IMG/VR virus record: IMGVR_UViG_3300009132_000021
Span: 1-29,693 of that record
Source of the DNA: a virus
Direction: 5' to 3' (one strand)
DNA length: 29,693 nt
The notes under the pieces are model-generated. The model searched no databases. It was not told the DNA's origin and saw only the letters and a program-made list of their open reading frames with translations. Of this stretch, positions 19,269 through 28,289 are shown piece by piece. The translations under genes were made by a program, and so were the position numbers. How positions within the stretch are numbered: the first letter of the stretch is position 1; each line of letters starts with the position of its first letter.

Positions 19269-20153
19269 TTAGATACCATGTAATTGAAAATCAATAGTTG
19301 TGTTCGCTGTCGAAACAGCATTGGTTAAACTTACACTTGTTCCATTATTAGCTGTAAAATCTTGTCCATTAATTAATTTAATACCATTCATATATACAAA
19401 AATATTATCAACAATATAATTAATATTAAATGTCTGTTCTCCTACATTCGGAGTAATAGAACTTAAAGTAACTGATGGTTTAAAGGATAATGTTCCAGCA
19501 CCATCAGTTGTCATAATATGATTCTGTGTACCATCAACAATATCAAGTTCGGGAATACCAATTTTATTAGATTCTATTTCTAATGATTCACAAGGCCCTG
19601 ATAAATCTTGTCCACCAGCAATATTTATAAAAATTAAATTTCCAGCACCATCTGTGCCTGGAAATTGTTGTATACCATTTGTATACTGAGTTGTCTTATC
19701 TAATTCAGGTGTGCCTATAGTATTAGGATCAATGTCTGCATTATCAATCGTACCTGAAAGATCACTGCCCCAGTTTGCAGAAATCATTGCTGTTGATATT
19801 TTTAAATCAGTAAATTCTGTTGTAGCAATTTTAGTTGAACTATCACCTTGACCAGTAGTTACACCAGTTACACTTGTGGTTAATGCTACATCCATATAAC
19901 CATTAATATTAATATTACCTACACCCATAATATCATGGTTGTTTACATCTAAGTCATCACCAAGTTGTGGCGACTTGTCATCATGGATTGTACTAAGGAA
20001 TCCGTCAAAATCTGCTTTCTTCTCATTAATAGATTCAACCAAAGAAGATTTAATCGTAGTGTTTAAATTATCTAATTCCCCATGATCTATGGGTATTAGA
20101 TTAGTCTTTTCAATCCAAAGTTTTAAATTATCTTTTTTAGTTACTGTTATCAT
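19269..20153 (-). CDS. Tail fibre protein, coupled to the radical SAM gene
   Basis: A 294-residue fibre. The N-terminal module (about 1-60) ends with TIKSSLVESINEKK, and SPQLGDDLDVNNHDIMGVGN follows at about 61-80. The middle has STKIATTEF and two copies of a repeat ending TDGAGxLxF (about 168-173 and 217-222). The C-terminal domain (about 245-294, IFVYMNGIKLINGQDFTANN onward) is the shared knob. It is a paralogue of the fibre at 25069-25944. The ATG lies 17 bases inside the end of the radical SAM gene, with GAGGA upstream, so it is translationally coupled to that enzyme. It has a single Cys (in GPCESLE). Confidence 0.85.
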   Translation of the reverse strand: MITVTKKDNLKLWIEKTNLIPIDHGELDNLNTTIKSSLVESINEKKADFDGFLSTIHDDKSPQLGDDLDVNNHDIMGVGNININGYMDVALTTSVTGVTTGQGDSSTKIATTEFTDLKISTAMISANWGSDLSGTIDNADIDPNTIGTPELDKTTQYTNGIQQFPGTDGAGNLIFINIAGGQDLSGPCESLEIESNKIGIPELDIVDGTQNHIMTTDGAGTLSFKPSVTLSSITPNVGEQTFNINYIVDNIFVYMNGIKLINGQDFTANNGTSVSLTNAVSTANTTIDFQLHGI

Positions 20154-21534
20154 GTACCGCTTCCTCTATACCAAATATATTTATTCTATCTTCTGGTGTT
20201 TCCGTTTCACCTTCAATTCTATAAAGAAGTTTGGCATCTCCCATATGTGCTGTTATTTGATATAGAGCAGCAGTCAACCAAACAACATTATCACTAAAAG
20301 CATTATTACAAGATATATCCCATAACTCTGAATCGGGTTCAAGAAACAAACATGATCCTTGACAAAGTTGCAATACTGGACAATTAGAACAATCTTTTCT
20401 ATCAGACCAATGTGTTCCAGCATTAATTTTAAGTTTATCTAAACCTTCATCACCATTATCAAGACTACCAATGTTATGACTTATCCCCGCTGTATTAGAT
20501 GATGATGCTGTAACATTTTGACAAGTTGTAATAGTTCCGTTTAAATCAACTGAAAGGGTATCAGGACTATCCATACCACATTTTTGATTTAATGCTTCAG
20601 CGGGTCTTTGTGATTGCAAAGTTTGAATGAAGTTTTCTGTTTTCTGTGAAAGTATATTAAACCTAGATACTTTCTGATTGGTAATTTCATAAATTGATTT
20701 TTTTCTATATTCAATATGTTCTTCGGGTGTACTCCAAGAATTATTTTTTCCACCTTCATCATATGCATCAACAGTACCACCCTCACCTATCGGAAGAATA
20801 CCAACTTTATTTTCAAACCATTTTGCAATATCACCACGACTCTCATTATATTTGTGAACCATACTATTAAAAGATATATGACCTAGAGGTGCTAATTTGT
20901 TTTTCAATTTTTGAATCATCTTAGCTTTTTCAGGATCATCAAATGGGTCTGGCCCTCTAGTTGGTTGTCCTGGCCCATCATGCGAAATAGATATACGAAC
21001 ATCATGTTTCTCAATAAAATCAATTATCTCATCTGTAAACAACGATCCATTTGTTATAATACTATAAGTAGATTTTGGATATTTCTCATGTAGTTGTTCG
21101 ACTAAAGGTTTTAGAGTTTTCCAATAAAGGAAAGGTTCTCCACCCCATAATTCAAAATGTGGTTCGTCTTGAATTGATATGTTGTCAAACTTCTTAACAT
21201 ATGCTTCTACTTCATCATCTCCAATATGATACATATCGGATGTGTCCAAATGATCGTCTTTATTTCTTGGTACAAATCGTTGTGAACAATAATCACAAGA
21301 ATAATTACACTTTAAACCTAAACTTATTTTTATCTTTTTTAAATTTCTTTTACCAGCAGACATTCCCCAACTATCTTGTTTACTCCAATCCATAAAATTA
21401 GTTTGTGGTATAACAATATCACCATTGGATTGACGTAGTTCAGAAGTCATATTATCATAAGTCATATAAAATTCATCATTATTATTTTCATCAGCGTTTC
21501 TTACACTTGACATATAAAATTTAAATTTAGCCAT
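20137..21534 (-). CDS. Radical SAM/SPASM-domain peptide- or protein-modifying enzyme
   Basis: A 465-residue enzyme. The radical SAM core has CNYSCDYC at 76-83 (C76, C80, C83 for the 4Fe-4S cluster), ELWGGEP at 128-134 (SAM-binding GGEP), SIITNGSLF at 158-166 and ISISHDGP at 181-188. The C-terminal SPASM domain is complete: C319, C338 (in NGTITTC), C382-x2-C385-x5-C391-x3-C395, and C409, predicted to hold auxiliary 4Fe-4S clusters. Such enzymes modify peptides or proteins (sactisynthases, anaerobic sulfatase maturases, PqqE-like). The start is the ATG at 21534, with GAGG upstream. Its neighbours are a 2OG-oxygenase-like gene (its TGA at 21537-21539 nearly touches this start) and a fibre gene overlapping its end. 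The substrate is unknown; fibre proteins are the best guess. Confidence 0.92.
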   Translation of the reverse strand: MAKFKFYMSSVRNADENNNDEFYMTYDNMTSELRQSNGDIVIPQTNFMDWSKQDSWGMSAGKRNLKKIKISLGLKCNYSCDYCSQRFVPRNKDDHLDTSDMYHIGDDEVEAYVKKFDNISIQDEPHFELWGGEPFLYWKTLKPLVEQLHEKYPKSTYSIITNGSLFTDEIIDFIEKHDVRISISHDGPGQPTRGPDPFDDPEKAKMIQKLKNKLAPLGHISFNSMVHKYNESRGDIAKWFENKVGILPIGEGGTVDAYDEGGKNNSWSTPEEHIEYRKKSIYEITNQKVSRFNILSQKTENFIQTLQSQRPAEALNQKCGMDSPDTLSVDLNGTITTCQNVTASSSNTAGISHNIGSLDNGDEGLDKLKINAGTHWSDRKDCSNCPVLQLCQGSCLFLEPDSELWDISCNNAFSDNVVWLTAALYQITAHMGDAKLLYRIEGETETPEDRINIFGIEEAVHDNSN

Positions 21535-21536
21535 TA

Positions 21537-22388
21537 TCAACCTCGGAATGTTTTTAGAAGTTCGTTATACCCATGTGATATAATTCTAAAGTTAGTTACA
21601 ATACAAACTCTTGTTCCTTTACCCAGCCAAGGATTAGTTTCATGCCATAAATAGTTTGGATGAATTATTGTTAATCCAACTCTAGGTGTAATAGCGTAAA
21701 CCTTTTCCCAATAAGGATAAGAAATTGCTGGTCTTGGGTCTTGAAACAAAACCTGATGTGTTCCATTTCTAGGTGATTGTTCCTGACCAACTAAAACCTG
21801 ATCTTCTAATGCAACATTCTCATCACCCATCGCTAAATAGGTAACTACAACTCCATTAATGTCTTGATGATAATGTGGATAGGTTCGTGCTCCACCCAAC
21901 TCACTATCTCTTTGTACATTACCAAAACATCTCCCCTCAATAATCATATCATCTGCTTGTCTTATTCCCCATCCATAACGAATGTAATAACGAATTTGTT
22001 GACAAACAATCTGTTCATATGCTAATATAGATTCTTTTTCATTTGGAAATTCATCCATATCTTTATCATCAAAAAGATTATAATGCGTAGTAGCATAAAA
22101 TCCTTTTGATTTAGCCATATCATGGAAATCAGGTTCTTTAGTTTTAATATCTTCCATTGATAATTCTTTTGCAGTTAAGACTTTACACAAGTCTTTATTG
22201 ATTTTATCAGGAAGTGTCGAATCCATTTCCATAAATGGTGTAGTCCACTTATGATCTATGTTTGCGTGTTTATGAAAGGGATGATCGGTTTTATCTTCGG
22301 CTTCAGGTTCTAAATCTTTCCAATACTGTATGTGTTCTGGTGTTTGTTCATTATACGCTTCATACTCATTCGTTTTGAAGATTCCCAT
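21537..22388 (-). CDS. 2OG-Fe(II) oxygenase-like protein, copy 1
   Basis: A 283-residue protein from the ATG at 22388, chosen because AAGGA lies just upstream; the longer frame to 22451 begins with TTG and contains a terminator hairpin. Motifs are HYNLFDD (102-108), PHYHQDINGVVVTYL (171-185, candidate iron ligands H172/H174/D176), FQDPRPAISYPY (215-226), HPNYLWHETN (243-252, distal His) and GTRVCIVTNFRI (258-269, candidate 2OG-binding Arg260). The layout matches 2OG-FeII_Oxy_5/TIGR02466-type proteins, which are frequent in marine phages. It is paralogous to 24178-25059. It is followed almost without gap by the radical SAM gene, suggesting a joint role. Activity and substrate are not shown. 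Confidence 0.72.
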   Translation of the reverse strand: MGIFKTNEYEAYNEQTPEHIQYWKDLEPEAEDKTDHPFHKHANIDHKWTTPFMEMDSTLPDKINKDLCKVLTAKELSMEDIKTKEPDFHDMAKSKGFYATTHYNLFDDKDMDEFPNEKESILAYEQIVCQQIRYYIRYGWGIRQADDMIIEGRCFGNVQRDSELGGARTYPHYHQDINGVVVTYLAMGDENVALEDQVLVGQEQSPRNGTHQVLFQDPRPAISYPYWEKVYAITPRVGLTIIHPNYLWHETNPWLGKGTRVCIVTNFRIISHGYNELLKTFRG

Positions 22389-22412
22389 TTTAATCCTTCC
22401 ATCATATTTGTT

Positions 22413-22445
22413 AAAAATATTATGGGGGGCATAATTACCCCCCAT
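22413..22445 (-). terminator. Probable terminator between the 339-residue gene and the oxygenase/radical SAM pair
   Basis: An 8-bp stem rich in G-C pairs (22445-22438 with 22429-22422) has an 8-base loop and is followed within a few bases by five T (22417-22413). It sits in the 68-base gap between the stop at 22457 and the ATG at 22388. The T-run is short, so termination may be partial. Confidence 0.6.
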
Positions 22446-22456
22446 CTTCAAATATT

Positions 22457-23476
22457 TTATGCTACAGTATAATCAACATCAGCAAGACCAGAATAATTCC
22501 TAAATCCAATCTTTACTTTAAATGTATCACCAGCAGACATTCCCAAAGCACCGACTTTAAATGAACCAGTACCGTCTGTTATACTAACACGTTGTTTTGG
22601 TAGATAACCGCCTGTATGTTCAAGATAAACATCAGTTGCATGGTTAATCGTAGAACCATCACTATCAACCATTTTAAAGTCAACTGTTTCGTATGCATCA
22701 GCATCAATACCACCACCACCATTTGTTACTACAAATGTAGGTAATGCTTCTGTCATATGTCCAACATAATCATAACCAGTTCCACTTTCCCAACCACTTG
22801 TGGTATTTGTACTAAAACCATAAGCCTTGTTATATTTAATAGTATATGAAGCATCCATAAAAGAAGTATCAGTAAATGGTCGATAACAAAGTAAAGCACA
22901 CGGAGCTCCAGAATGTCTGGATTCTCTCAATGGATGTGATTTAGTGTTATAGGTTTTACCGATAGAATTAAAAGCGGGTTGTGTATAATGCCATCCACCT
23001 ACTTTGGCACCCATTCTGACTGGCCAAACTGAAGGTACTGTAGCAAAACCAACACCAACAGTCCAAACAGCAGCATCAGAATTTTCTGCACCCATAGAAG
23101 GATCAGTAGGATCAATCCACGAATAAGAAGCACATCTGAAATATTTACCAGCCATTTTAGCGGTATAAGTACCCTTAATATTATCAGGCATATGAACAAG
23201 AAGTTCCTCACCAGTTATTTTAGCACCATAAAGTCTTGAGGTTGGAAGTTTTGTGTGAAAAATTCCTGAATTATTACCAGGCCAGTCCATATGGTCTACG
23301 CTGGAATCTCCAACCAAACTTCTTTCAGGAGTTCTACCAATATCAGCTTCCATACTATCGCTCTCATACATTTCTTCGTCTATTTCCATCCAGTTTTTCA
23401 AACATATAAAATCATCATTGACTAACAATTCCAGATGCGTCGGCATGGAAAGACTGTCATAAGATCGTCTAAACAT
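22457..23476 (-). CDS. Putative virion/adhesin protein of unknown family
   Basis: A 339-residue protein I cannot assign. The N-terminal 70 residues are acidic (LVNDDFICLKNWMEIDEEMY onward). The centre (about 70-225) is rich in Trp, Tyr and Gly. The last 95 residues, after a VVTNGGGGIDADAYETVDF linker, look like a beta-sandwich/Ig-like domain (VYLEHTGGYLPKQRVSITDG, then DTFKVKIGFRNYSG). Location between the Cys-tailed fibre and the oxygenase/radical SAM pair suggests a virion adhesin or a partner of fibre modification. AGGAG lies 10 bases before the ATG. It is the last gene before a probable terminator. Confidence 0.7.
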   Translation of the reverse strand: MFRRSYDSLSMPTHLELLVNDDFICLKNWMEIDEEMYESDSMEADIGRTPERSLVGDSSVDHMDWPGNNSGIFHTKLPTSRLYGAKITGEELLVHMPDNIKGTYTAKMAGKYFRCASYSWIDPTDPSMGAENSDAAVWTVGVGFATVPSVWPVRMGAKVGGWHYTQPAFNSIGKTYNTKSHPLRESRHSGAPCALLCYRPFTDTSFMDASYTIKYNKAYGFSTNTTSGWESGTGYDYVGHMTEALPTFVVTNGGGGIDADAYETVDFKMVDSDGSTINHATDVYLEHTGGYLPKQRVSITDGTGSFKVGALGMSAGDTFKVKIGFRNYSGLADVDYTVA

Positions 23477-23524
23477 TTTGCATATTCTCCTATTTAATTA
23501 TTTTTGATAAAGTTATATGTAAGA

Positions 23525-24109
23525 TTAACAATTACAAGCACAGGCACAGTCGCAGGCACAAGCACAAGCAGTCTGACAATTATATTCTCCTAGAAGAACA
23601 TTTGCACCTGACGTTGTATTTTGCAACCCAATTCGGCCCCCACAAGCAGTACCACCAAAGCCTGGATTTGTCGGGCCCCAAATACTAACCTGACCAGTAC
23701 CACCAGTAATCGTTCCTGTTCCACCAGCAGTAGCACAGTTAGCATGGTTTGTACAGTTTGTTACCCATGTTCCATCACCACGCAAGTAAGTTGAACTGTT
23801 TTGAGTTCCAGAACCCAAACGTGCTCGGTTGATAGTTCCCGAACTAATGTTAGCAGCATTTGTAGTATCTGTCGTAGCACTAGCTGCTAACCCACTAACT
23901 TGACCGGCAGGCAAATTAGATATACGAGCATTCGGCAACGTACCCGAACTAATATTATCAGCATTCGTAGTGTCTGTCGTAGCAGAAGCAACTAGAGAAG
24001 GTTTATTTAGAATCGTATTCCAATCACTTGCTGGAACATTATCCAAAGCACCAGATACAACATCTCCACCTGAATCTATAAGATCAGCGATTTGTCTTGC
24101 TATAGTCAT
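23525..24109 (-). CDS. Tail fibre protein with alternating-cysteine C-terminus
   Basis: A 194-residue protein. Residues 41-57 and 76-92 are two copies of ASATTDTTNAxNISSGT, then comes STYLRGDGTW (106-115), both common in marine-phage fibres. A Gly/Cys part follows (Cys119, 125, 156; CTNHANC, GGTACGG). The final 17 residues, CQTACACACDCACACNC, put cysteines at 178, 182, 184, 186, 188, 190, 192 and the very last residue 194. I know no fibre family with such an ending. It could bind metal, crosslink a trimer, or be the substrate of the radical SAM/SPASM enzyme encoded about 2 kb downstream. AAGGA precedes the ATG. Neighbours are an oxygenase-like gene upstream and the 339-residue gene downstream. 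Confidence 0.88.
   Translation of the reverse strand: MTIARQIADLIDSGGDVVSGALDNVPASDWNTILNKPSLVASATTDTTNADNISSGTLPNARISNLPAGQVSGLAASATTDTTNAANISSGTINRARLGSGTQNSSTYLRGDGTWVTNCTNHANCATAGGTGTITGGTGQVSIWGPTNPGFGGTACGGRIGLQNTTSGANVLLGEYNCQTACACACDCACACNC
23528..23578 (-). repeat. Hexanucleotide (Ala/Asp-Cys) coding repeat
   Basis: The last 17 codons of the Cys-tailed fibre contain six consecutive 6-base units of the type GCY-TGY or GAC-TGY, with two of them identical. This is a short tandem array that could gain or lose Cys pairs in frame. Confidence 0.75.
23771..23793. repeat. 23-bp exact direct repeat, copy 2 (encodes TYLRGDG)
   Basis: Identical to 16840-16862 in the 589-residue fibre gene, about 6.9 kb away, in the same orientation and reading frame. 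Confidence 0.9.
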
Positions 24110-24177
24110 TTGTTTATTCCTTTTTAAAAATTAATTGATAATGTTAATATAGATATGATGTAAATATAGTTGTTGAT

Positions 24178-25059
24178 TTATGTTTTAATCAATGGTTTAA
24201 CCAATCCATTATTATTGTATGTATTGACACGATAATTAATCACCACCGCTGCTCTTATACCTCTACCACTAAAAGTGTTAGATTCGTGCCATACATAAGC
24301 AGGATGAAATAAAGTCGTTCCAATCTTAGGAACATAATCTTTTGCCTTACTATTATACGGATAATTAATAGCAGGTCTAGGGTCTAACAGTAATAACGCA
24401 CCCTCTGTTTCATTAGGCATATCTTCCTTCTTTAAATCAAAATCAGCATAATTTGCAACCGTTCCCTTTCGTCCTTCACTATCATCATCAGATTTAAGTT
24501 CACAAATTGTCGAGCCAGGAGCTACAAGTTGTAAATCATCATCCCCATCAACGTCAGTAGTTAAAGCAAACTCACCACCAAGCGTTAAGTATGTAATCAT
24601 AACACCATCAAAAGCGTGATGGTAGTGTGGAAAGGTTCTGCGGCCAGTAGTTTGCATATTACCAAACCCCCGACACTCAATGTCTAACTGATCAGCATTT
24701 TTTACATTGTAAGCGTTTGCGACATAGTATCGTATTAATTCACTCGATATTTCTTCATAACCTTTTATGGCAGGATTGTTGTCTCTGTCATCAAAAAGAT
24801 TATAATGATTTCTTTCAAACTCTATTGTCATGGTTCTCTTATGAGTACCCATTGTCGTACAATAACCTTTAGAAGCAATATACTCTATTAAACCAACTCT
24901 CATATCTTCAGGTAAATTTAATTCTATTCTTCCTATAGGCGTAACCCACTCAGGAGTTATTTGTAGATTACCGTCTAAAGGATGACCACCAAGATACTTA
25001 TCTTGTCTTTCTAGTTCTTCTTGGGATAACCTATAACCAGTTTCCGTTTTAGTTTCCAT
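24178..25059 (-). CDS. 2OG-Fe(II) oxygenase-like protein, copy 2
   Basis: A 293-residue paralogue of 21537-22388. It shares NHYNLFDDRD (84-93), the YEEISSELIRYYVANAY helix, IECRGFGNMQ, PHYHHAFDGVMITYL (144-158), LLLDPRPAINYPY (223-235), HPAYVWHESN (252-261) and RGIRAAVVINYRV (266-278). Candidate iron ligands are the PHYH histidines and the distal His in WHES; Arg269 is the candidate 2OG contact. An acidic insertion (about 165-215) is specific to this copy. The Asp of the HxD motif in copy 1 is replaced here (HHA), though an Asp follows at 151, so the ligand set needs testing. Its ATG is 9 bases after the stop of the fibre at 25069, with AAGGT upstream. Confidence 0.7.
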   Translation of the reverse strand: METKTETGYRLSQEELERQDKYLGGHPLDGNLQITPEWVTPIGRIELNLPEDMRVGLIEYIASKGYCTTMGTHKRTMTIEFERNHYNLFDDRDNNPAIKGYEEISSELIRYYVANAYNVKNADQLDIECRGFGNMQTTGRRTFPHYHHAFDGVMITYLTLGGEFALTTDVDGDDDLQLVAPGSTICELKSDDDSEGRKGTVANYADFDLKKEDMPNETEGALLLLDPRPAINYPYNSKAKDYVPKIGTTLFHPAYVWHESNTFSGRGIRAAVVINYRVNTYNNNGLVKPLIKT

Positions 25060-25068
25060 ACACCTACC

Positions 25069-25944
25069 TTAGCAATAAACGTGAAATTCTACCCTATCTG
25101 ACGTATCAAGCGCCTGACCACCAATCAATGTTACACTTGTTCCATTGTCAGCAGTAAAGTCTGAATCTTTGACTAGTTTAACACCATTTAAAAATACAAC
25201 AATTCTTCCAACATTGTATGTAATTGTAAATTCAGTTTGACTTGCTGTTGGCGTAACTGTTGTTTCTGTAACTACTGGTTGAAAACTAACAGTACCAGCA
25301 CCATCCGTAACTAGGGCATTACCCATTGAACCTTCTGATGCGTTTAATTCATTAACACCAACTGTATTTGCATTAATTTGAGCATTACTTAATGTTCCAC
25401 TTACATCACCCGACAGAGTTAAATCAACATCAATAAAACTTAAATTTCCAGCACCATCCGTAGAAAGTATTTGTCCATTCGTTCCATCTGCAACATTTAA
25501 TTCAGTAATACCAACCACATTTGCAATAATCTGAGCATTTCCGATTGAACCTGAAATATCACCACCAACAGGAGCCATTTGTATTTCATTTTGAACGTAT
25601 GCAGTAGTTGCTATTTTAGTTGAATTATCACCAGTTGAATGTGTTACGCCAACCGTATCTGCATGAAGTGTACCTGTATAACTCCCTGATATATTAATAT
25701 TACCAGTACCAGTAATATTTGCATTGAATATATCTAAGTCGCCACCCAACTGAGGTGTCAAATCTTCAACAACATTTTCTAATTTACCAGTTATATAAGT
25801 AGATAATTCATTTATAGCAGACACCAAATCGACTTGACTTGAAGTTGTCAACGCTGTTAGATCACCACTATTTGTGGAAATCGTATTGGTCTTGATTCTC
25901 CACTCATCAAAGGTGTCTATTAAGTTTACAGTTACTAATGCCAT
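25069..25944 (-). CDS. Tail fibre protein, first gene after a late promoter
   Basis: A 291-residue paralogue of the fibre at 19269-20153. It has an N-terminal module ending SQVDLVSAINELSTYI, then TPQLGGDLDIFNANITGTGN, STKIATTAYVQNE, two GDxSGxxxNAQI units, and two TDGAGxxSF repeats (about 167 and 217). The C-terminal knob domain (IVVFLNGVKLVKDSDFTADN onward) ends in EFHVYC. AAAGGA precedes the ATG, and an exact late promoter lies 18 bases upstream of it. The terminal Cys is unusual among the fibres with this knob. The receptor is unknown. Confidence 0.85.
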   Translation of the reverse strand: MALVTVNLIDTFDEWRIKTNTISTNSGDLTALTTSSQVDLVSAINELSTYITGKLENVVEDLTPQLGGDLDIFNANITGTGNINISGSYTGTLHADTVGVTHSTGDNSTKIATTAYVQNEIQMAPVGGDISGSIGNAQIIANVVGITELNVADGTNGQILSTDGAGNLSFIDVDLTLSGDVSGTLSNAQINANTVGVNELNASEGSMGNALVTDGAGTVSFQPVVTETTVTPTASQTEFTITYNVGRIVVFLNGVKLVKDSDFTADNGTSVTLIGGQALDTSDRVEFHVYC

Positions 25945-25962
25945 TGTTACCTGTCCTTTAAA

Positions 25963-25970
25963 TATTTATA
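25963..25970 (-). promoter_or_regulatory. T4-type late promoter upstream of the fibre at 25069-25944
   Basis: An exact TATAAATA on the minus strand, 18 bases upstream of the ATG at 25944, inside a 65-base gap. It could drive the fibre, oxygenase-like copy 2, the Cys-tailed fibre and the 339-residue gene, up to the terminator at 22413-22445. Confidence 0.7.
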
Positions 25971-26009
25971 ATTTTCATTACTTATGTTTTAGTTAAAACG
26001 GATTTAATT

Positions 26010-26624
26010 TTAATTTATTTTTGGTTGATGCGTATAAAAGTGCGTAATACACCATCTACCATAACCCTTACCAACATTCTCCTGATCCATACTTACCATA
26101 TCTACCTCATGTAGATAATAACTTGGGAAGATAACCATTCTGTTGTGTTTACATTCAACTATACTATCTGATTGAGGAAACTTTAAATCCCCACCAGTAA
26201 ACCTCTTTGGTTCTCTGTAAAACCATATCAAACAAGTATGCATGAAAGTATCAAAATGAGTTTTATATTCATCTTGATTTTCATAATAACTAACTATTGA
26301 CTGATCTATGTTACACGATAACCATGTTCTCCATGAAGGAGTCGTTTTTTGATATTGTTCTACAACAGGTAATGAACAAACTCTCCCATGATGTCTTAAT
26401 ATACTTGACTTATCTCTTTGACCCCTATAAAAATAATCTAATGCAAGTCTACTTAGTATTGCTGGATTTTCTTCACTAGAACCAATAGGGATTTTATCCT
26501 TAACACAATACCTTTCAAGATAGTCTAATTCTTTCAAGATTTCTTCTTCTTGATTCCTATCATAAAAATCATCTACCATCAAGTAAGGGTAAATATTATA
26601 TTCATTATATATTTTAAATTTCAT
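26010..26624 (-). CDS. Prolyl-4-hydroxylase-type 2OG-Fe(II) oxygenase
   Basis: A 204-residue enzyme with a complete cofactor set: HFD at 123-125 (H123, D125), GGDLKFP at 144-150, distal His172 in SYYLHEV and Arg190 in GRWCITHFY. This is the P4Hc/2OG-FeII_Oxy pattern, in which 2-oxoglutarate, O2 and Fe(II) hydroxylate a protein residue, often proline, or another substrate. It starts directly at the stop of the 554-residue fibre gene (TAAATG), with AGGATAA as ribosome site, so the two are made together. Such oxygenases are frequent near fibre genes in marine T4-like phages. Proline hydroxylation of a fibre is possible, but the substrate cannot be read from the sequence. Confidence 0.88.
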   Translation of the reverse strand: MKFKIYNEYNIYPYLMVDDFYDRNQEEEILKELDYLERYCVKDKIPIGSSEENPAILSRLALDYFYRGQRDKSSILRHHGRVCSLPVVEQYQKTTPSWRTWLSCNIDQSIVSYYENQDEYKTHFDTFMHTCLIWFYREPKRFTGGDLKFPQSDSIVECKHNRMVIFPSYYLHEVDMVSMDQENVGKGYGRWCITHFYTHQPKIN

Positions 26625-28289
26625 TTATCCTAAAAATATCCCATACGCTTGTACCACAACACCTGTAGCATTTTGAGCAACATTAAATACACAACCATCA
26701 CTAGTAAAATTTGTAAATGAATAATCAGTAAATTTATTAGTACCAAGCGTTGGTGTATCACCAATACTTAAAATCTTGCCAGCATTTGCTTCATTACTCA
26801 TAGCGCCGGTATATCCTTGAATTTTTGGAAATCCACCTGTACCAATTCCTACATTATCATTAAATGCAGTTGCGATTGCACATTGAGTAGTTCCATCTGT
26901 AAAACCTACTGACCATCTCATTTCTCCACCAGTACCTATCACTATAAGTGCTTTCGGTTCAAACGCAATACCAGTAATAGTTCTAGGGCCTGCATTACTA
27001 GGGTCTATTCCCATATCACCGTCTACATGAACTTGTAACGCACCACCACTTGTCCATGCTGGTACGCCTCCTACTACCGATAGTATTTGTCCAAGAGTAC
27101 CAATAGGTAATCTTTCAAAGTCTGTACCATTATAGCGTAACAAATCACCAAGAGCATCAGAACCCATAGCGATATGTGTTCCGTTTACAGAATTCGTAGC
27201 GATGTCTTGTGCAACAATAACACCGTTCCCGATCATAGCAGATGTAATAGTATTATTCGGAATTGTAATATTAGAAACCGTACCCGACAAATCACCACCA
27301 ACAGCAGTTCCACCAACATCCGTAGAATCATTTGAGAATGATAATACACCAGCACCGTTTGTTGTAAGTACCTGTCCTGCTGTACCATCCGCTACTGCAA
27401 GTTTCTCTATGGTAACTGAATTATTAGCTAATTTAATAGTTGTTACACTATCATCAGCAACTGTACTTGCGATTCCTAAGTGTAATACTTTTATTGCAGA
27501 ACCATTTGGGGGAGCGGGAGTGAAAGTAATACTAGTTGTTGTTGGTAAAGTATATGAACTGGTTGGTTGAGAAACACCATCAACAAAAGCCATGAGACTT
27601 TCTTCGGAAGGTGCAGCTGTACTTAAAGTGAATGTATCAGTTGTACCATCACCAGAAAAAGTATCTTCAATAAAATTAGAACTACCAGAACCACCAACAC
27701 CACTTTGAGTTACGAATGATAAGTTACCCATACCGTCTGTGGATAAGACTTGACCATTTGAACCATCAGAAACATTTATTTCTGTTATACCAACTGAATT
27801 GGGCCCAAGTTGATTTACATCTTGAAAACTAATAGTACCAGCACCATCCGTAGTTATTACTTGACCAGTTGTACCATCACTTAATTCTAATTCATCAATA
27901 CCGATACTTGGTAAGGCAAAGGATATGTTACCTGATCCATCAGTTTGTAAATGTGATCCTGCTGGGCCATCCGAGGTTTGGAGTTGAAGTACACCAACTG
28001 AATTAGGCGACATCCCACCAGCTGCAACGAAACTTATTTGACCAGCGCCATCTGTTTGTAATACCCAACCAGCGTTACCATCTATTGTTGCGAGTTCTGC
28101 AACATTAATTCTATTCGCAAGATTAATATTAGATGCATCTGCCTTTCCTAATGGATAACCGCCAAGGGTTACTCCATCATGGACGACTACCGTATTCGCT
28201 GTGGTATCAACAGTTATTTCTCCAACGGCACCTGTAAAGGCGTCGTGTTCAACAGTTGTACCCCTTCGTCTTTTTACTTGTTTAGCCAT
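26625..28289 (-). CDS. Large tail fibre protein with five TDGAGxLSF repeats
   Basis: A 554-residue fibre. The N-terminus KRRRGTTVEHDAFTGAVGEI, then VVVHDG (about 6-39), is a widespread marine-phage fibre attachment module. Five repeats of the form IxELxxxDGxxGQVLxTDGAGxLSF lie near 64-87, 100-124, 131-155, 168-192 and 294-318. Between the fourth and fifth is a knob-like domain (SLMAFVDGVSQPTSSYTL, about 231-272). The C-terminal region (from about 415, FEPKALIVIGTGGEMRWSVG to VVVQAYGIFLG) is a distinct globular domain that may bind the receptor. GGTGG precedes the ATG. It is followed without gap by the hydroxylase gene. Confidence 0.87.
   Translation of the reverse strand: MAKQVKRRRGTTVEHDAFTGAVGEITVDTTANTVVVHDGVTLGGYPLGKADASNINLANRINVAELATIDGNAGWVLQTDGAGQISFVAAGGMSPNSVGVLQLQTSDGPAGSHLQTDGSGNISFALPSIGIDELELSDGTTGQVITTDGAGTISFQDVNQLGPNSVGITEINVSDGSNGQVLSTDGMGNLSFVTQSGVGGSGSSNFIEDTFSGDGTTDTFTLSTAAPSEESLMAFVDGVSQPTSSYTLPTTTSITFTPAPPNGSAIKVLHLGIASTVADDSVTTIKLANNSVTIEKLAVADGTAGQVLTTNGAGVLSFSNDSTDVGGTAVGGDLSGTVSNITIPNNTITSAMIGNGVIVAQDIATNSVNGTHIAMGSDALGDLLRYNGTDFERLPIGTLGQILSVVGGVPAWTSGGALQVHVDGDMGIDPSNAGPRTITGIAFEPKALIVIGTGGEMRWSVGFTDGTTQCAIATAFNDNVGIGTGGFPKIQGYTGAMSNEANAGKILSIGDTPTLGTNKFTDYSFTNFTSDGCVFNVAQNATGVVVQAYGIFLG

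Follow-up and report, generated by a model that had tools for sequence, protein, structure and literature searches.

Why would a phage place a radical SAM enzyme and several oxygenase-like proteins among the genes for its tail fibres? The question is raised by IMG/VR record IMGVR_UViG_3300009132_000021, a T4-like marine myovirus with capsid, portal, sheath, tube, and terminase genes, of which we analysed a stretch of 29,693 nucleotides (the window). An eight-gene block in its host-recognition and tail-fibre region had been proposed to form a fibre-maturation system with four redox enzymes, in the order oxygenase, fibre, oxygenase-like protein, Cys-tailed fibre, unknown adhesin-like protein, oxygenase-like paralogue, radical SAM/SPASM enzyme, and fibre. 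All eight genes are present in that order on the minus strand (Table 1). The upper end of the proposed block (20137–26624) holds, while the last fibre gene extends its lower limit to 19269, and two junctions abut or overlap, with the P4H-type gene abutting an upstream fibre gene (26624/26625) and the radical SAM gene running into the last fibre gene. Only 2 nt separate the OxyB stop from the radical SAM ATG. The order OxyA, Cys-tailed fibre, unknown protein, OxyB, radical SAM is kept in contigs L004, L006, and L008, and that of fibB in L001, L005, L006, and L008; because gene order persists in contigs whose radical SAM enzyme is only ~69% identical, the block is not a chance arrangement.

Table 1. 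Features of the fibre and redox-enzyme block, in window coordinates.
Feature	Position	Strand	Remarks
fibB, tail fibre-like	19269..20153	minus	phrog_18345 tail fiber; overlaps radical SAM gene by 17 nt
Radical SAM/SPASM enzyme, probable CxC maturase	20137..21534	minus	465 aa from ATG; PF04055, TIGR04085, phrog_1802
OxyB, PF13759-type 2OG-Fe(II) enzyme	21537..22388	minus	283 aa; motif HYHQD...H...R
Conserved partner, C-terminal Ig-like domain	22457..23476	minus	339 aa; family recurs at radical SAM and CxC loci
Cys-tailed short fibre, probable substrate	23525..24109	minus	194 aa; ends ...CQTACACACDCACACNC and stop
CxC tail segment	23525..23575	minus	Cys alternates with Ala, Asp, or Asn as far as the stop
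Possible T4-late-type promoter element	24161..24168	minus	TATATTTA; ahead of Cys-tailed fibre; weak, consensus match only
OxyA, OxyB paralogue	24178..25059	minus	293 aa; motif HYHHA...H...R (no HxD)
fibA, tail fibre-like neighbour	25069..25944	minus	paralogue of 19269–20153
P4H-type 2OG oxygenase, accessory	26010..26624	minus	PF13640 36.1 bits, cut-off 27; HFD (HxD) present

The radical SAM enzyme scores above the cut-offs for both the radical SAM superfamily (PF04055, 9e-11, 42.7 bits against 29.5) and the SPASM domain (TIGR04085, 34.4 bits against 27), and it matches phrog_1802 at 2.6e-62. Ten cysteines are invariant among 31 relatives, three in the CX3CX2C motif (CNYSCxYC) and seven in the SPASM region (including CX2CX5CX3C), the latter presumably leaving, by comparison with anSME, a three-Cys auxiliary cluster I. 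The predicted structure (pLDDT 85) is most similar to the thioether former CteA (Z 21), with ChlB, anSME, and TigE as further neighbours and EpeE lower (Z 12). The CteA alignment starts at residue 1. The N-terminus of the model has three strands and no helices before residue 50, and no helical RRE leader-binding domain was seen there. The nearest NCBIfam models are PapB (ranthipeptide) and CcpM (Cys-rich peptide), but the enzyme falls far below every equivalog cut-off shown (PapB 70.3/340, CcpM 70.1/500, SCIFF maturase 38.3/425 bits), and its reaction is therefore not readable by homology.

What it might act on is suggested by the Cys-tailed fibre. A C-terminal CNC directly before the stop is common to 19 of 19 homologues in this fibre cluster, most with further NC repeats, and the codons of the tail are mixed (TGT/TGC, GCT/GCC), so we rejected the idea that the tail is a product of chance or a nucleotide repeat. 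A tblastn search of GenBank phages with the Cys-tailed fibre or OxyB gave no match.

To follow the enzyme and the cysteine run across phages, we compared 58 representatives from 80 of 279 radical SAM loci, all counts being those of samples. Among the matches listed, a strict (C-x)3C protein is encoded on the enzyme's strand in 38 of the 46 loci that extend 5 kb or more upstream, while several of the remainder carry a looser Cys-rich protein; L040 and L041/L044 had no Cys-rich partner in the stretch examined. In the reverse direction, and blind to the enzyme, IMG/VR was scanned for CNCNCNC or for CACACNC followed by a stop, again yielding samples. This search returned at least 81 in-frame ORFs, and among the matches listed 58 of 81 had a radical SAM gene in the fetched stretch, on the strand of the CxC ORF in all 58, compared with 0 of 66 out-of-frame or short pattern matches serving as controls (Fisher p 2e-22). 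A whole-record search found the enzyme for 7 of the 14 plausible CxC ORFs that had none nearby, and for most of the remaining 7 the record ends just downstream of the CxC gene. When CxC records with no radical SAM gene in the stretch were searched with PF13759, 3 of 20 matched.

The N-terminal scaffolds of the CxC proteins fall into 21 clusters, ~15 of them plausible and unrelated, and of 46 CxC proteins, 27 have the run at the C-terminus (18 exactly), 13 directly before Hint, a self-processing domain, 5 before an SKIIC domain, and 1 internally. The radical SAM family and the CxC segment thus predict each other on unrelated scaffolds, and what the enzyme pairs with is, on the sequence evidence, the cysteine run itself. 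A Cys-rich core adjoining a co-directional modifying enzyme, as looked for in RiPP-type systems, is what these loci contain. For the spacers, which the scan patterns bias towards Asn and Ala, we used only loci found through the enzyme; the 193 spacers there include 97 Asn, 62 Ala, and 16 Asp, with Gly at 0 against 16 expected (p 1e-7) and E, K, P, I, and L likewise absent.

These data give the fibre-maturation idea of the original prediction firmer support than gene layout did, and they narrow the target: the likely substrate is the CxC tip of one protein, the Cys-tailed fibre, instead of fibres in general. The proposed grouping of four redox enzymes stands only in part. PF13759-type enzymes recur with the radical SAM enzyme, the family being present in 34 of 58 radical SAM loci by clustering and absent from 24 (22 by profile; some such loci are incomplete), and in 32 of 58 CxC-found loci against 0 of 66 controls, all among the matches listed. 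The P4H-type gene, by contrast, is absent in L006 and L008, displaced in L004, and found in just 3 of 58 radical SAM loci among the matches listed, and we have removed it from the conserved set. It alone fails to travel with the set. Enzymes occurring independently of any fibre gene, the observation named beforehand as counting against the idea, are not what the radical SAM family shows. The "unknown adhesin-like" protein, on the other hand, belongs to the set: among the matches listed, its family occurs in 27 of 58 radical SAM loci by clustering and in 46 of 58 CxC-found loci against 0 of 66 controls. Its predicted structure (pLDDT 89) gave Ig-like partial matches and none of full length in a Foldseek search of the PDB, and its full-length matches in BFVD are uncharacterised phage proteins only. 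Since the oxygenases are missing from 24 of 58 loci, and the partner from the Achromobacter/Burkholderia group, neither seems indispensable.

OxyA and OxyB are clear paralogues (31% identity, E 7e-45). OxyB passes the PF13759 gathering cut-off (31.4 bits against 27), whereas OxyA reaches only 16.6 bits, with a phrog_81 match at 5.5e-6. As in the PF13759/phrog_81 phage 2OG-Fe(II) oxygenases, the HxH, distal His, and Arg are kept, with H144, H146, and H257 invariant and R268 nearly so, but unlike in those enzymes the facial-triad carboxylate is not conserved: the HxD place holds D in OxyB and A, G, or S in OxyA. Hydroxylation by this pair, as first envisaged, is thus not to be assumed, and we have dropped the view of them as plain hydroxylases.

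Our preferred reading, to which we assign a probability of roughly 60%, is a RiPP-like maturation cassette whose precursor would be a tail-fibre tip, with the radical SAM enzyme thioether-linking the CxC run, the oxygenases tailoring it, and the partner presenting it. The "precursor peptide" would be the C-terminal tip of a virion fibre, made of alternating Cys-x (x = Ala, Asp, or Asn). The radical SAM/SPASM enzyme would bind this run as its probable substrate, perhaps with a substrate Cys filling an open site on its auxiliary iron–sulphur cluster, and would abstract hydrogen from spacer residues, most likely to form thioethers between Cys-S and C-beta (or C-alpha), which could stiffen an otherwise floppy tip into a ladder that resists reduction. 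Tip residues would then be oxidised by at least one PF13759-type non-haem iron enzyme, the Ig-like partner may hold or present the tip, and in Hint-type fibres the domain would cut itself off and leave the run as the C-terminus of the mature protein. The modified product would probably sit at the receptor-contacting end of the fibre. We consider it an even call whether this extends to a widespread class of virion maturation, in which a radical SAM/SPASM "tip maturase" cross-links the Cys-x ladder of receptor-binding fibres in tailed phages of several kinds and in prophages, often with non-haem iron enzymes (OxyA, with a putatively open HxA/G-type iron site, might even add halide) and the partner, to give covalently stapled, chemically modified adhesin tips.

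The same enzyme could instead perform other radical chemistry on the CxC run: formylglycine formation as in anSME, C–C cyclophanes, cyclopropylglycine as in TigE, or epimerisation to alternating D residues as in EpeE. All three namesakes are structural neighbours of the model, and an alternate-residue pattern would be natural for epimerisation, yet by structure and by profile alike the top matches form thioethers on Cys-rich peptides, EpeE lies at Z 12 versus 21, and anSME requires CxPxR-like motifs; we judge this alternative unlikely, if worth keeping in mind. In favour of the thioether reading, PapB joins Cys to Asp C-beta across 0–6 residues (PMC9413430); against it, the spacers are mostly Asn and Ala, where PapB uses Asp or Glu.

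A metal or Fe–S site at the trimeric fibre tip, for which the radical SAM enzyme makes some other change that the site needs, would also account for a cysteine run at this position near non-haem iron enzymes. Alternating cysteines would face one side of a beta-strand and meet in threefold symmetry, much as T4 gp37 binds iron through pairs of His. A simple site of this kind needs no dedicated SPASM enzyme, however, and run and enzyme almost never part; nor does metal binding demand that Gly be excluded from spacers rich in Asn and Ala, and we think this explanation quite improbable. Least credible of all is that the radical SAM enzyme and oxygenases are auxiliary metabolic genes riding in a hypervariable host-recognition island with no functional link to the fibres. 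Such islands do collect cargo, the P4H-type enzyme behaves in this way here, and radical SAM cassettes have been noted in them (PMC7029224), but cargo would not track a seven-residue codon pattern over ~15 types of scaffold without ever changing strand relative to it, and the 58 of 81 against 0 of 66 in the reverse search among the matches listed speaks against it.

If radical SAM enzymes do finish these fibre tips, the way phages bind receptors in many environments hinges on post-translational chemistry invisible in sequence alone, such a fibre expressed alone would be without its mature tip, and a new set of portable enzymes for modifying peptides, whose CxC substrate is easy to recognise, is open to study. 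SPASM-type ribosomal peptide maturases are known for small peptides, cofactors, and sulfatases. Our literature search, which covered mainly open-access papers, found nothing on radical SAM enzymes with phage fibres or Cys runs, no description of radical SAM finishing of a fibre tip in viruses, and no SPASM enzyme finishing a viral structural protein.

Among known systems, the maturation of CteA/SCIFF and PapB-type ranthipeptides and sactipeptides is similar in that a SPASM enzyme lies beside a gene with a Cys-rich C-terminal segment, and this group, with CcpM, also supplies the best fold and profile matches given above. PapB accepts varied Cys-acceptor spacing (PMC9413430), whereas the phage system has strict Cys-x alternation, a probable substrate that is a virion fibre protein of ~130–500 aa instead of a small peptide, no clear leader/RRE, exporter, or protease, and an enzyme far under the equivalog cut-offs. 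anSME is similar in that it modifies a Cys within a protein of full size and shares the CX2CX5CX3C SPASM layout, but the phage locus has no sulfatase or CxPxR motif, its enzyme has one SPASM Cys fewer, and its probable target is a run of 4–7 or more Cys. Radical SAM genes also lie among tail fibres in the host-recognition cluster of pelagimyophages, again marine T4-like phages, which the accessible part of the report treats only as variable cassettes, proposing no link to a Cys-run fibre (PMC7029224). In Achromobacter phages JWF and 2-1, a Hint domain comes after the run, a different small partner is present, and no PF13759-like enzymes were found; the enzyme carries the annotation "radical SAM" or "anaerobic sulfatase-maturating enzyme", separately from the fibre and with the pairing not noted. 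Even so, it is a phrog_1802 enzyme of ~40% identity, and it adjoins a tail fibre carrying CNCDCNCNCSC.

The window carries T4-like myovirus structural genes (major head, scaffold, protease, portal, tube, sheath, terminase and neck). Genes for tail fibres and host recognition come after them, and the minus strand encodes them all. All eight genes of the fibre and redox-enzyme block described in the original prediction are present there at defined positions. The oxygenase-like proteins OxyA and OxyB share 31% identity and are paralogues, and the Cys-tailed fibre ends in CQTACACACDCACACNC, encoded by mixed synonymous codons. An Mtd_N (major tropism determinant N-terminal) domain is found in the tail protein directly upstream of the P4H-type gene (26625-28289). 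TATAWWTA elements lie ahead of 25944, 24109 and 19213, positions that hint at a single late transcript for the Cys-tailed fibre, its conserved partner, OxyB, the radical SAM/SPASM enzyme (rSAM) and the last fibre.

Genes of the fibre and enzyme block, and OxyA orthologues with a substituted iron-ligand position
Feature	Position	Strand
P4H-type oxygenase	26010-26624	minus
Fibre	25069-25944	minus
OxyA	24178-25059	minus
Cys-tailed fibre	23525-24109	minus
Conserved partner protein	22457-23476	minus
OxyB	21537-22388	minus
Radical SAM/SPASM enzyme	20137-21534	minus
Fibre	19269-20153	minus
OxyA orthologues with Ala/Gly/Ser at the Fe-ligand position	window 24178-25059; L004, L006, L008, L029, L036	

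Gene content and order are conserved: contigs whose rSAM is about 69% identical keep the order OxyA, Cys-tailed fibre, partner, OxyB, rSAM, with the flanking fibres also present wherever sequence reaches, while the P4H-type gene is absent from L006 and L008 and lies elsewhere in L004. One otherwise near-identical contig has its rSAM gene broken into two ORFs (L003 7590-8993), either an assembly error or a broken copy. IMG/VR holds 279 rSAM relatives, 80 of which were kept for comparison, and the family also occurs at 11 loci in bacterial genomes (among them Burkholderia, Limnohabitans, Thalassobius and Magnetospirillum) and in two Achromobacter phage isolates, JWF and 2-1. Clustering of neighbouring genes over 58 non-redundant rSAM loci placed PF13759-like oxygenases near 34, the partner family near 27 and a P4H-type enzyme near only 3, so, of the four enzymes proposed to accompany the fibres, the P4H-type one does not belong to the conserved set. 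At 10 loci of Achromobacter/Burkholderia-type phages, a different 240-aa family without a Pfam match (L016 8225-8947) sits between the Cys-run Hint fibre and rSAM, and may replace the window's partner protein.

A same-strand protein with alternating cysteines, (C-x)3C, was found in 57 of 97 rSAM loci, the rest being mostly cut off, and a strict run in 38 of 46 representative loci having at least 5 kb upstream. The Achromobacter fibre adjoining rSAM contains CNCDCNCNCSC. Most of the few long-flank loci without a strict run have looser Cys-rich tails (CSACACNC in L008, NCNCNCTSNCNCS in L065, NC repeats with a final CACNC in L037); no Cys-rich partner was found in the available stretch of L040 or L041/L044.

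In the reverse direction, we scanned IMG/VR for DNA encoding CNCNCNC and CACACNC-stop, ignoring the enzyme. Matches lying in frame within an ORF of 60 aa or longer were compared with all others, which served as the internal control. Among the matches listed, the rSAM profile hit 58 of 81 in-frame loci and none of 66 controls (p 2e-22), always on the strand of the Cys-run ORF; the oxygenase family (32/58) and the partner protein (46/58) likewise gave 0/66 in controls. Fourteen plausible in-frame proteins lacked a nearby rSAM; whole-record search located one for 7, and most of the other records end just downstream of the Cys-run gene. Most of the negatives left over are spurious ORFs or have the run at the N-terminus (L117, L141, L167, L185, L208). 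Because kinship among loci could inflate these counts, we note that the enzymes of the loci found through the Cys run form 44 clusters at 90% identity and 30 at 70%, and that the scaffolds form 21 clusters by the sequence before the run, or about 15 once spurious ORFs are removed. Enzyme and Cys run predict each other on unrelated scaffolds. In L112, L118, L127, L186 and L196, a diverged rSAM gene, or two of them, lies close to small proteins (67-220 aa) with C-terminal CNCNCNC; these may be a branch nearer ordinary RiPPs or another virion protein.

Among 46 distinct Cys-run proteins near rSAM, the run is C-terminal in 27 (exactly so in 18), followed by a Hint self-processing domain in 13 (Pfam recognises it in L016 and, weakly, in L009) or by a SKIIC domain in 5, and internal in one 2084-aa protein. 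The run's final Cys often doubles as residue 1 of the Hint domain, so self-processing there would yield a mature protein that ends in the run. Spacers in loci found through the enzyme are Asn (97), Ala (62), Asp (16), Thr (8), Gln (4), Ser, Val and Arg (2 each), with no Gly, Glu, Lys, Pro, Ile or Leu; the absence of Gly amid abundant Asn and Ala would suit either a reaction needing a beta-carbon or a beta-strand tip. Cys-tailed fibre genes also occur in tandem, as three copies in L030 (4612-5973) and four in L035 (1704-3881), the latter with long regular NC repeats (TNGNGxxNC). A conserved SKIIC(T/A/S)KL... domain follows the run in L011, L012, L014, L080 and L087; L012 has two desaturase-like genes between the Cys-run gene and rSAM (PF00487 in the one examined). 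A RimK-like ATP-grasp gene (PF08443; L009 2820-3755) overlaps a Cys-run Hint gene, a candidate further type of peptide-tailoring enzyme.

The CX3CX2C cysteines, a GGEP motif and seven SPASM cysteines are invariant across the rSAM relatives compared; the absent eighth SPASM Cys, by comparison with anSME, is presumably a ligand of auxiliary cluster I. In CteA, a substrate Cys occupies an open site on that cluster, and CteA is the closest fold to our AlphaFold model (pLDDT 85; Z 21 over 340 residues), ahead of ChlB, anSME and TigE, with the epimerase EpeE at Z 12. PapB and CcpM are the closest NCBIfam models but their equivalog cut-offs are missed by far; by analogy, the enzyme probably works like both yet belongs to neither family. 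PapB couples Cys to the Asp beta-carbon across 0-6 intervening residues (PMC9413430), a tolerance that makes dense Cys-x runs feasible substrates. We consider the Cys run to be the rSAM substrate with a probability of roughly 0.8, and thioether chemistry, overall, as about an even bet or slightly better.

The oxygenases would further tailor the run. OxyA/B-type proteins retain an HxH motif and a distal His that is followed, 11 residues on, by an Arg, fitting 2OG-Fe(II) enzymes, while the usual HxD/E carboxylate position is Asp in OxyB (HYHQD) and Ala, Gly or Ser in OxyA orthologues (HYHHA/G/S). Hydroxylation, as originally proposed, is therefore not to be assumed. Carboxylate loss is a hallmark of Fe/2OG halogenases such as SyrB2, whose open site the OxyA orthologues resemble; alternatively, the iron site may use three His. 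The partner protein gives a confident model (pLDDT 89) with an Ig-like C-terminal domain; no solved structure was found to match its full length, and its nearest BFVD structures are uncharacterised phage proteins.

The modified run would act at the receptor-contacting tip. We place this system with the RiPP-like SPASM enzyme-substrate pairs: the enzyme class is known, but a virion fibre tip as its substrate is, to our knowledge, new.
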